A stretch of 33,874 nucleotides of DNA from an uncultured Burkholderiales bacterium (lineage in GTDB: Bacteria; Pseudomonadota; Gammaproteobacteria; Burkholderiales; Burkholderiaceae_C): NCBI GenBank assembly GCA_937873395.1, contig CALMYH010000166.1, positions 1 to 33,874 on the forward strand. The letters are read 5' to 3'. Below are positions 13,671 through 16,885 of this stretch, in pieces. A model generated the notes under the pieces. That model searched no databases and was not told the origin of the DNA. It saw nothing but the letters and a program-made list of their open reading frames with translations. How positions within the stretch are numbered: position 1 is the stretch's first letter; every line of letters starts with the position of its first letter. The translations under genes were made by a program, and so were the position numbers.

Positions 13671-14591
13671 TCAGCGGTAGAACGAGTCCTGCCCCGGCGG
13701 GCGCGTCTTGAAGCGCTGGTGCACCCAGTAGTACTGCTCGGGGGCCTGCCGGATGAGGTCTTCCAGCTCCCGATTCATGCGTGCCGTGTCGGCCTCGACA
13801 TCGCGGGTCGGAAAACCGCTCCAGGCGGGATGCACGGTCACCTCGTAGCCTTCGGCGGTGAGCCGGCTGGTCACCGGCACCACCCGGGCATCGGCCAGGC
13901 GCGCAAACCGCGACAGCGAGGTCAGCGTCGCGGTCGGTATGCCGAAGAAGGGCACGAACACCGAGTCGCGGGCGCCATGGTCCATGTCGGGCAGCAGATA
14001 CAGCGGAAGCCCGGCGCGCAGGGCCGCCACCAGCGGTTTGAGCCCCTGCCTGCGGGCGACGATGCGGGGGTTGCCGAAGCGCTGGCGCCCGAGGGTCATC
14101 CAGCGGTCCACGTCGGCGTTGAGCTGGGGCGCATAAATGCCGCAGAAGCGGCGGTCCAGGTGCACGGTCAGCGCGGTCCAGCCCGCATCCATGCCGACAA
14201 AATGGGGAGCGAACAGCACAGTCGGCGCCTCACCTGCCAGCGCCTGCAGGTCGCCCTGCAGGCGCAAGCGGCTCTTCACCCGTGTCGGCTGCCCTTCCCA
14301 CAGCCAGCCGCGGTCCAGCCAGGCCTGGGCAAAGCGCACGAAATGCAGCCGCACGGCCCGATCGACCTGCAGCGGTGCGTGTTCCGGAAAACACAGGCGC
14401 CAGTTGGTCTTCGCGATCTGGCGCCGGCGGCGCGCGAACAGATACAGCAGCTGCCCGGTCAACCAGCCGAGGGCACGCAGCCAGGACAGGGGCAGACGCC
14501 CCAGCAGGCGCATCAGGCGCAGGCCCATGCGGTTGCGCCAGCCCGGCCAGCCCGGGGTGGGTGGCCGACCCGCGTCAAACCCTTCGCTCAT
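13671..14591 (-). CDS. Lysophospholipid/lipid A acyltransferase, LpxL/HtrB family (second copy)
   Basis: Inner-membrane acyltransferase that adds secondary acyl chains to lipid A. 306 residues from the ATG at 14591. There is a hydrophobic N-terminal anchor (about 35-55), the catalytic HX4D box at H130-D135 (HFVGMD), the later conserved block [25 protein letters not shown], and the C-terminal [16 protein letters not shown] typical of LpxL/HtrB enzymes. The ATG overlaps the stop of the upstream paralogue (ATGA), so the two are co-translated. Which position of lipid A each copy modifies cannot be told from sequence alone. Confidence 0.93.
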
Positions 14592-15460
14592 GCGGGTTCC
14601 CCCGCCGTGTGCGCATCGGCCCTGGGATGTTTGTACCGGTCGTAGGCCCAGAGATACTGGCTCGGGCATTCGCGGATCAGAGCCTCCATGGCCTGGTTGA
14701 GGGCGTGGGCCTGCTGCGCCGGGCTGGCCTGGGCCTCCAGGTCATCAAAGCCGTGGAACGGGCGCACATGGACCAGAAACCCGCGCCCCCAGGCCAGCCG
14801 CTCACCCCAGACCAGCACCACCCGCGTGCCGGGGCCGGAGGCGAGCCGGGCCGACAGGGTCATGGTGTAGGCGTCGCGGCCGAAGAAGGGGGCCCAGACC
14901 CCCTGTCCGATCGGCGGCACCTGGTCGGGCAACAGCCCCACCGCGCGCCCGGCGCGCAAGGCCTTGATGAGCTGCCTGACGCCGGCCAGCGTGGTGCTGG
15001 CCGCCTCCAGGCCGGGACGCTGGCGGGCCCGAGCCAGCAAGGATCGCAGCCAGGGCTGGCGGGCTGGCCGGAACAGTACGGTCATGGGCTGGCGGGCACC
15101 GAAGCGGTCCGCATACGCCTGTGCGGTGATTTCGAAGCAGCCCAGATGCGGAGTGAGGAACAGCACGCCACCCCCATGCGCCTGGGCCGCCTCGATGACG
15201 GCCGCGCCTTCCCATCCGACACGCACGGGGCGCCCGAACCACAGGCGGGGCAGCTCGGCCACCATCTTGCCGGACTCGGCCACCGAGGCCAGCGTTTCAC
15301 GCCTTCCGATGCCCGCCTGCCGCGCATTGCCCAGCAGCCGCCGCCGGTAACGGGCGGACAGCAGGAAGCTCAGCCAGCCCAGCACCCAGCCCAGCCCGTG
15401 CAGCACGGGCAAAGGCAGCCTGGACAGGACCTGGAACAGTGTCCGGATCAACAATTGCAT
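14588..15460 (-). CDS. Lysophospholipid/lipid A acyltransferase, LpxL/HtrB family (first copy)
   Basis: 290 residues. N-terminal hydrophobic anchor (about 15-35, [17 protein letters not shown]), catalytic HX4E box at H105-E110 (HLGCFE), the substrate block [24 protein letters not shown], and a C-terminal [13 protein letters not shown] motif. It is clearly a paralogue of the gene that follows but only moderately similar, so the pair probably performs two different acylations rather than being a recent duplicate. It is divergent from metK with 192 bp between start codons. The tandem-acyltransferase/metK arrangement recurs in Burkholderiales. Confidence 0.93.
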
Positions 15461-15536
15461 GTCGGTAATGTGTCACACCACCACCGGGCAGGCGACCGGC
15501 GGATCCCGTGGCCATGTCCGGTGCCGGACCTTGTTC

Positions 15537-15542
15537 TAGAAT
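15537..15542 (+). promoter_or_regulatory. Putative -10 box of metK
   Basis: TAGAAT (5 of 6 to TATAAT) lies about 110 bases before the metK start. The -35 region is poor. Transcription from about 15549 would give a leader of roughly 100 nt that contains the whole structured element described next. Confidence 0.35.
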
Positions 15543-15588
15543 GCACCCATCGCCGAGTTGATGAACTGATTGCGGGGCGATTCACAAA

Positions 15589-15652
15589 TGCCGCTAAAGC
15601 GTTCGCCGAACTCCGAAAAGCGGCAACGCCGTTCAACAACACCGGAGTTTAT
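15589..15652 (+). promoter_or_regulatory. Candidate pseudoknot riboswitch in the metK leader
   Basis: Helix 1 pairs TGCCGCT (15589-15595) with AGCGGCA (15619-15625). The loop of that helix contains AACTCCG (15609-15615), which is perfectly complementary to CGGAGTT (15643-15649), and this second segment contains the metK Shine-Dalgarno GGAG (15644-15647), five bases before the ATG. Together they make an H-type pseudoknot that would block ribosome binding. Two small hairpins compete: GTTC/GAAC (15601-15604 with 15608-15611) disrupts helix 2, and CGGC/GCCG (15621-15624 with 15628-15631) disrupts helix 1. The logic matches small SAM-responsive riboswitches known on metK in other bacteria, but I cannot match the sequence to a named class. 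Confidence 0.6.
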
Positions 15653-16837
15653 ATGGCGAATGACTTTCTCTTCACGTCCGAATCGGTCTCCGAAGGCCAC
15701 CCCGACAAGGTGGCCGACCAGATCTCCGATGCCATCCTCGACGCCATCCTGGCCCAGGACCCTGTCTCGCGCGTGGCCGCCGAAACCCTGACCAACACCG
15801 GTCTGGTCGTGCTGGCCGGCGAGATCACGACCCAGGCCAACGTGGACTACATCCAGGTGGCGCGGGACACCATCAAGCGCATCGGCTACGACAACACCGA
15901 GTACGGCATCGACCACAAAGGCTGTGCGGTGCTCGTGGCCTATGACAAGCAGTCCAACGACATCGCCCAGGGGGTCGACCGGGCCAGCGACGATTACCTG
16001 AACACCGGTGCCGGCGACCAGGGTCTGATGTTCGGTTATGCCTGTGACGAAACCCCGGAGCTGATGCCGGCGCCCATCTACTACGCCCACCGGCTGGTCG
16101 AGCGACAGGCCCAGTTGCGCAAGGACGGCCGCCTGCCCTTTTTGCGGCCCGACGCCAAGAGCCAGGTCACCCTGCGATATGTGGACGGCAAGCCGCACAG
16201 CATCGACACCGTCGTGCTGTCGACCCAGCACAGCCCTGACCAGAGCGAGACCGCCACAAAAATGAAGGCCAGCTTCATCGAGGCGGTGATCGAGGAGATC
16301 ATCAAGCCGGTGCTGCCCGGGGAATGGCTGCAGAACACCCGCTACCTGATCAACCCCACCGGGCGCTTTGTGATCGGTGGCCCGCAGGGCGACTGCGGCC
16401 TGACGGGACGCAAGATCATTGTGGATACCTACGGTGGCGCATGCCCGCACGGTGGCGGCGCCTTCTCGGGCAAGGACCCGACCAAGGTCGACCGCTCGGC
16501 CGCCTACGCGGCCCGCTACGTGGCCAAGAACATCGTCGCCGCCGGGCTGGCCCGCCAGTGCCAGATCCAGGTGGCCTATGCCATCGGCGTGGCGCGTCCC
16601 ATGAACATCACCGTCTACACCGAAGGCACCGGCGTCATCCCGGACGCCGACATCGCCAGGCTGGTGGAAGCCCATTTCGACCTGCGCCCGAAGGGCATCA
16701 TCCAGATGCTCGATCTGCTGCGCCCGGTCTACAGCAAGACCGCCGCCTACGGGCACTTCGGCCGCGAAGAACCCGAATTCACCTGGGAAAGAACGGACAA
16801 GGCCCAGGCCCTGCGTGCAGCGGCCGGACTGAAATAA
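15653..16837 (+). CDS. metK: S-adenosylmethionine synthetase MetK
   Basis: Makes S-adenosylmethionine from methionine and ATP, releasing phosphate and pyrophosphate. 394 residues, a standard bacterial length. Motifs include GHPDK at residues 15-19, the [12 protein letters not shown] signature, and the P-loop-like block [19 protein letters not shown] with the downstream RYVAKN. The ATG at 15653 follows GGAG by five bases, and that ribosome binding site can be sequestered by the leader structure. A strong intrinsic terminator follows 20 bp after the stop, so metK is a single-gene transcript divergent from the acyltransferase pair. Confidence 0.98.
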
Positions 16838-16856: not shown

Positions 16857-16885
16857 GCCCCGCTTTGGCGGGGCTTTTGTTTTTT
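16857..16885 (+). terminator. Rho-independent terminator of metK
   Basis: A perfect 7-bp stem GCCCCGC/GCGGGGC with TTTG loop (16857-16874) is followed directly by TTTTGTTTTTT. It lies 20 bp after the metK stop codon. This is one of the clearest terminators in the window. Confidence 0.93.

Follow-up and report, generated by a model that had tools for sequence, protein, structure and literature searches.

We propose that metK in an uncultured Burkholderiales bacterium is preceded by a divergent SAM-II riboswitch joined to a translational expression platform, and that SAM probably switches MetK translation off through this leader. The window, that is, the whole stretch of 33,874 nucleotides that was analysed, carries an initial annotation in which a SAM-sensing H-type pseudoknot at 15589-15652 hides the SD of metK. 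A SAM-type riboswitch hiding this SD, widespread in metK leaders of Burkholderiales, is still the best reading; however, the H-type pseudoknot is not the sensor. On comparison of the sequences, the sensor is best read as a divergent SAM-II pseudoknot at 15549-15604, with P1 starting 40 bases upstream of 15589; the annotated span starts 40 bases too late and splits this aptamer in two. The surroundings of the leader are as follows.

14588-15460, strand opposite to metK: lipid A acyltransferase-like gene, the upstream neighbour.
15537..15542, plus strand: -10-like box TAGAAT (direct reading), ending 6 bases 5' of P1.
15653..16837, plus strand: metK, S-adenosylmethionine synthetase (PF00438, PF02772, PF02773), with its ATG at 15653.

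Because the acyltransferase-like gene lies upstream on the other strand, the metK leader sits within a divergent gap, and because the -10-like box ends 6 bases before P1, the transcript likely starts at P1 itself. In 72 of 104 leaders, 6 or 7 bases separate the end of a TANRAT box from P1; 9 more have such a box at other near distances, and 23 have none near; P1 is misassigned in 3 of the 104 in this parse. Termination in the window leader was considered and rejected, since its sole terminator-like site (15516-15529) is upstream of the aptamer. On the 3' side of metK, direct reading finds a terminator-like hairpin, GCCCCGC-TTTG-GCGGGGC, followed by a T run (16857-16880).

The comparison draws on a MetK search that found the protein in 39 of 40 relatives, from which 30 loci were used, the window's own among them, and on a further 80 named metK loci, for example from Hydrogenophaga, Acidovorax, Comamonas, Variovorax, Polaromonas, Rhodoferax, Roseateles, Undibacterium and Cupriavidus. 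The 110-leader set contains the window (L002) and at least one duplicate pair (L009/L034). The core motif GCTAAAG occurs within 260 bases of the start codon in 105 of these leaders; it is missing from L027-L030, members of more distant families, and from L079, whose leader ends at a contig end. All motif-bearing leaders except L056, which is cut, parse in the order P1, L1, UUGC, P1', L3, GCUAAAG (104/105). In many leaders (L037, L041, L049, L052, L064, L072, L078, L093), the loop from P1 to GCUAAAG holds an insert, 40 to 124 bases in all, which may fold as a hairpin. The aptamer of the window comprises the following parts.

15549..15554, plus strand: 5' strand of P1, AUCGCC, partner 15576-15581.
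15555..15559, plus strand: pocket stretch of L1, GAGUU, covering SAM-II positions 8-12; position 10 (15557) is G where SAM-II has U; the register is from the Rfam alignment and the pocket positions are from the available text of PMC3764141.
15563..15566, plus strand: outer 5' strand of P2, GAAC, partner 15601-15604, with 97.4% of cells paired in 29 leaders.
15570..15573, plus strand: inner 5' strand of P2, UUGC, SAM-II positions 20-23, without variation in 29 leaders.
15576..15581, plus strand: 3' strand of P1, GGCGAU, from the 29-leader alignment.
15593..15598, plus strand: inner 3' strand of P2, GC-U-AAA, SAM-II positions 42-47, without variation in 29 leaders, partly by selection because these were chosen via GCTAAAG.
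15601..15604, plus strand: outer 3' strand of P2, GUUC, part of the contested strand, partner GAAC 15563-15566.

P1 is paired in 98.3% of cells of the 29 aligned leaders and changes on both sides in three of its six pairs. Taken together, P1 and P2 are paired in 98.5% of cells with four two-sided pairs, against 36-42% for slid versions. The outer part of P2 reads GAAC/GUUC, or GAC/GUC in other lineages, and all its pairs form in 101 of 104 leaders (with G-U counted and the best L1 place taken). The SAM-II pocket letters U11, U12, U20, U21, G22, C23, G42, C43, U44, A45, A46 and A47 are all in the window, in a numbering that rests on the Rfam alignment, and the U at 15595 would read the SAM adenine; the conservation of the pocket across relatives is partly by selection, as GCTAAAG and UU were required.

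The exception is position 10, where the window has G, as do 103 of 104 leaders. A U at this position is reported as completely conserved in the SAM-II alignment of PMC3764141, as far as the available text goes, and with G10 in its place we label the element a divergent variant rather than a plain member of SAM-II. In the accessible part of PMC6061858, U8 of SAM-V, the equivalent of SAM-II U10, is bonded to the U by which the SAM adenine is held; therefore, G10 touches the pocket at second hand. Both the near-uniform G10 and this bond would fit a SAM-II descendant that now prefers another ligand or has lost SAM/SAH discrimination. We give this reading only a slim chance, considering that U11, U21, U44 and A47, which are said to read the sulfonium, the adenine and the methionine end, are kept in the window, that the gene is a SAM synthetase, and that the motif is otherwise the same in relatives with U10 (L022; L192 and L193, both at metK).

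Profile searches point to the same family. At gathering scores, the whole window gave no Rfam match. In a relaxed search of 15440-15760, the best match was SAM_alpha (RF00521, SAM-II) at 15540-15618, with 22.4 bits and E 0.0046, below the cut-off of 36; it begins 5' of the 15589-15652 span and ends within it. The models of SAM-V (RF01826) and SAM/SAH (RF01727) had no match at E<=10 in the same stretch, and matches of CDKN2B-AS_2 and sR32 near the site, with E >1, were taken as chance. On 15 other metK loci, the SAM_alpha model listed two, at 21.6 bits. The initial annotation had left the choice between a new class and a distant variant; the latter fits, as a divergent SAM-II, and the former does not. 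A model (R2) was built from 17 typical beta-proteobacterial SAM-II elements, one of which (L120) is from the window's own genome, and searched against 45 metK leader sources, mostly without the long L3 insert. It found the leader in 44 of them at E<=1, 41 at E<=0.01, and matched nothing else; the best score was that of the window (44.8 bits, E 1.2e-10) and the sole miss was L037, with a long insert. In reverse, a model built from 31 metK leaders (R1) found the element at 39 of 39 typical SAM-II loci, the weakest at E 0.0036. Common descent of the metK leader element with typical SAM-II is what this reciprocal profile search argues for.

The H-type pseudoknot fares differently. The letters of its 7-bp helix are present as annotated (TGCCGCT 15589-15595, AGCGGCA 15619-15625), and so are those of two short hairpins (GTTC 15601-15604/GAAC 15608-15611; CGGC 15621-15624/GCCG 15628-15631). 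The perfect complementarity in the window would suit a new class with this helix and the SD pairing as the sensor. We regard such a class as extremely improbable: the helix is not kept in relatives and shows no covariation, and its 5' strand overlaps the SAM-II core. Only 66.5% of its cells are paired in 29 leaders, the pair 15590-15624 is unpaired in 25 of the 29, and on each of the five measures used, 120 to 193 of 500 shuffles do at least as well. The check for covariation across relatives, which the initial annotation had put forward, is thus passed by the SD helix and P1 and failed by the 7-bp helix. In folding energy, the stretch 15589-15652 does not stand out from its shuffles (z -0.91), of which 33 of 200 equal or surpass it, and none of three stretches of the leader alone has a strong fold (z -0.91, -0.40, -1.22).

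What the initial annotation saw correctly is that AACTCCG at 15609-15615 is complementary to CGGAGTT at 15643-15649, which holds the metK SD. This helix is the expression platform, and it lies among two smaller hairpins.

15599..15607, plus strand: 5' strand of the anti-P2 hairpin, GCGUU-C-GCC, with C15604 bulged, partner 15622-15629.
15609..15615, plus strand: anti-SD AACUCCG, helix P3, partner 15643-15649.
15621..15631, plus strand: P4, small hairpin CGGC-AAC-GCCG inside P3, put to the own-versus-dealt test.
15622..15629, plus strand: 3' strand of the anti-P2 hairpin, GGCAACGC, overlapping P4.
15643..15649, plus strand: CGGAGUU with the SD core GGAG (15644-15647), helix P3, partner the anti-SD.

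For the pairing test, eight leaders without a GGCAACGC-like motif were excluded and the remaining 97 were thinned to 69. Each anti-SD pairs with its own SD at -12.64 kcal/mol, versus -9.59 kcal/mol when the partners are dealt out, and 0 of 5000 permutations, which ignore the tree, reach the own value; the pairing is beyond chance. A rerun without L049 (n=68) gave z -11.0, with -1.8 for a reversed anti-SD and +1.1 and +0.6 for two upstream segments as controls. Among the helices, the one between SD and anti-SD has the strongest support, and at equilibrium it is stable. These two properties would also suit an SD hairpin that works independently of any ligand (steady repression, temperature sensing or a protein site) beside an aptamer-like relic. 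This, too, has little probability, as a relic does not explain why all 104 parsed leaders retain the pocket and P2.

The anti-P2 hairpin is paired in 96.1% of cells in 29 leaders with little variation, a conservation that is partly by selection, and one two-sided pair occurs, in 2 of the 29; its own-versus-dealt z is -5.0. Better support than this covariation comes from five leaders (L032, L035, L043, L046, L047), in which GUCGCAG has a local partner, CUGCGAC or CUGCGGC, and an alternative one, CCUGCGAUG, at the SD and start, so that the same contest of helices is written in another sequence. The local partner offers only 4-5 bp in L023, L025, L026, L031, L104 and L105. P4 reaches z -7.0; its reversed-arm control deviates as well (z -3.1), which weakens it as independent proof, and we do not use it as such.

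Comparison of the leaders establishes, at the level of sequence, the relation to SAM-II, the conservation of P1 and P2, the covariation of the SD helix and the mutual exclusion of helices. We infer further that SAM is the ligand, that its binding turns translation off and that the RNA makes its choice while it is still being transcribed. The following course is proposed. The transcript would start at P1. When SAM is bound, the pseudoknot helix P2 would be stabilised and GUUC (15601-15604) engaged, and the local anti-P2 hairpin (15599-15607 with 15622-15629) would be prevented. With anti-P2 absent, the anti-SD (15609-15615) would pair with the SD (15643-15649), P4 nested within, and MetK translation would go down. 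When SAM is scarce, the anti-P2 hairpin would form ahead of the transcription of the SD and keep the anti-SD in its loop, leaving the SD open. The case for the proposed off direction draws on the order of synthesis, the exclusion of the anti-P2 hairpin by P2, and the identity of the gene.

Folding of partial and complete transcripts bears on this course. In transcripts ending 3 bases past GGCAACGC, the anti-P2 hairpin has a mean probability of 0.92, and 91 of 96 leaders lie above 0.5; for the window transcript with the same end, it is 0.99. At full length and equilibrium, the SD is mostly paired in both states of the P2 strand, taken and free. Among 52 leaders given one common coding tail, occupation of the P2 strand brought no drop in SD access (unpaired 0.14 to 0.16, p 0.25), and among 96 leaders with their real coding starts, the unpaired fraction rose from 0.132 to 0.165, a small, significant change in the wrong direction. 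A simple equilibrium switch is not seen in these two sets of folds, in which SD access does not fall.

The full-length folds would suit an on switch with an unchanged aptamer: in its free state, the contested strand would work with the anti-SD to clamp the start region together with the SD, and SAM would pull the strand off and help translation. In the most stable of these folds, both the SD and the start region are hidden, and the SD and the start codon become slightly more accessible when the P2 strand is blocked. Nevertheless, we hold this to be unlikely, considering that the SD stays paired with the anti-SD once the strand is taken and that induction of SAM synthetase by SAM would amount to positive feedback, which sets it apart from the SAM riboswitches in the literature searched.

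Beyond the off switch, the contested strand may also reach into the coding sequence of metK.

15655..15662, plus strand: start of the metK frame, GGCGAAUG, which can pair with 15600-15607 (8 bp, one G-U; window fold).

Leaders of the main group offer CGUUCGCC another partner, AUGGCGAACG at the metK start. The pairing reaches 9 bp in 64 of 105 leaders, against no pairing of that length in three coding-region stretches of the gene taken as controls. Codon 2 (15656-15658 in the window) is GCG in 71 of the 83 leaders with alanine at this place and never GCC, the codon of 55% of the other alanines; after thinning, GCG stands in 44 of 55. As a sign of RNA pairing, both the codon bias and the pairing at the start are suggestive only, because the start of MetK is itself conserved. 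We advance tentatively, as a proposal with less than an even chance, that Burkholderiales hold a translational SAM-II subclass with G10, in which the frame start AUGGCGAACG mimics the pseudoknot strand of the aptamer and CGUUCGCC chooses during transcription among the SAM pocket, the local hairpin and the start codon; codon 2 of metK would thus be held by the RNA.

Compared with known systems, the metK leader shares with SAM-II (RF00521) the order of P1, L1 and the P2 pseudoknot, the UUGC/GC-U-AA core, all pocket letters but one, and matches of covariance models in both directions; it differs by G10, by a separate downstream anti-SD helix with a competing hairpin, and by a score under the Rfam cut-off. 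Typical beta-proteobacterial SAM-II elements have the same core, but with U10 and then terminator-like hairpins with T runs. The metK leader is proposed to be translational, whereas most SAM-II elements are transcriptional according to the available text of PMC6061858, which names the metX SAM-II as a rare translational one. SAM-V, including the SAM-II/SAM-V tandem, is likewise a SAM-II-like pseudoknot controlling translation (same text); it hides the SD in its own short P2a, whereas the SD of metK lies 38 bases beyond P2 (P2 ends at 15604, the SD begins at 15643). SAM/SAH (RF01727) is also a small pseudoknot-type element directly 5' of metK, but it is reported in Rhodobacterales only, in the accessible text of PMC2864571, and its model has no match in the metK leader.

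SAM riboswitches usually have SAM synthetase among their targets (PMC2864571, available text). In the available text of the survey of Leyn 2014 (PMC4239095), SAM_alpha is reported in Rhizobiales and Rhodobacterales only and beta-proteobacterial metK is left without an explained regulator; the metXZ element of that survey appears to be the typical SAM-II seen here. The available text of PMC9481103 has 44 tandem SAM-II elements, some with RBS control in the second place, and translational SAM-II as such is therefore already in print. No description of SAM-II at metK in Burkholderiales was found in the open-licence literature. The element fills a named gap, the regulation of beta-proteobacterial metK, and is not a new class. 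If the reading is true, metK control is supplied in many Burkholderiales, a translational branch of the SAM-II family escapes the Rfam SAM_alpha model, and the leader becomes a test case for one aptamer fold rewired from transcription to translation with a changed pocket. Both forms could be compared in one cell, as the window's genome also has a second, typical SAM-II element before a metX-like gene (G000:C66:14368-14443, L120:501-576; 37.9 bits).

Within the genus, R1 matches in 59 of 60 genomes, whichever gene follows, and the one miss (G019) is 59% complete. It matches in 189 of 300 genomes of the order at E<=0.01 and in 39 of 185 of the class at E<=0.001, counts that include typical SAM-II because R1 detects both kinds. 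With reference genes named by NCBIfam, 40 R1 places from the stronger end of the list fall before metK (19), a MATE transporter region (13), metZ (3) and other genes (5). RF00521 matches in 88 of 200 genomes of the order, in 37 over the Rfam cut-off, and 40 of its places fall before metX (17), metZ (13), metH (3), metK (2), a cystathionine gamma-synthase family gene (2), the MATE region (2) and one other. The two at metK (L130, L145) are typical SAM-II; the Rfam model already detects metK elements, of the typical form, in a few genomes of the order.

Some further arrangements were seen in passing. A SAM-II-like element precedes a protein of about 110 residues starting MYDC or MFDC, followed by a MATE transporter, at L161, L162, L169, L176, L180, L185, L196 and L147; two of these small proteins had no NCBIfam match and the first parts of two had no Pfam match. 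At L175 and L204, a metK-type element stands before a gene that resembles a MoxR-type ATPase by eye (GAHGTAKS, GPHGSAKS), with no NCBIfam match. Tandems, with a first SAM-II-like element and a terminator-like hairpin and then a metK-type element near the start codon, occur at L160, L161, L162, L163, L164, L166, L167, L168, L169, L181, L202 and L204.
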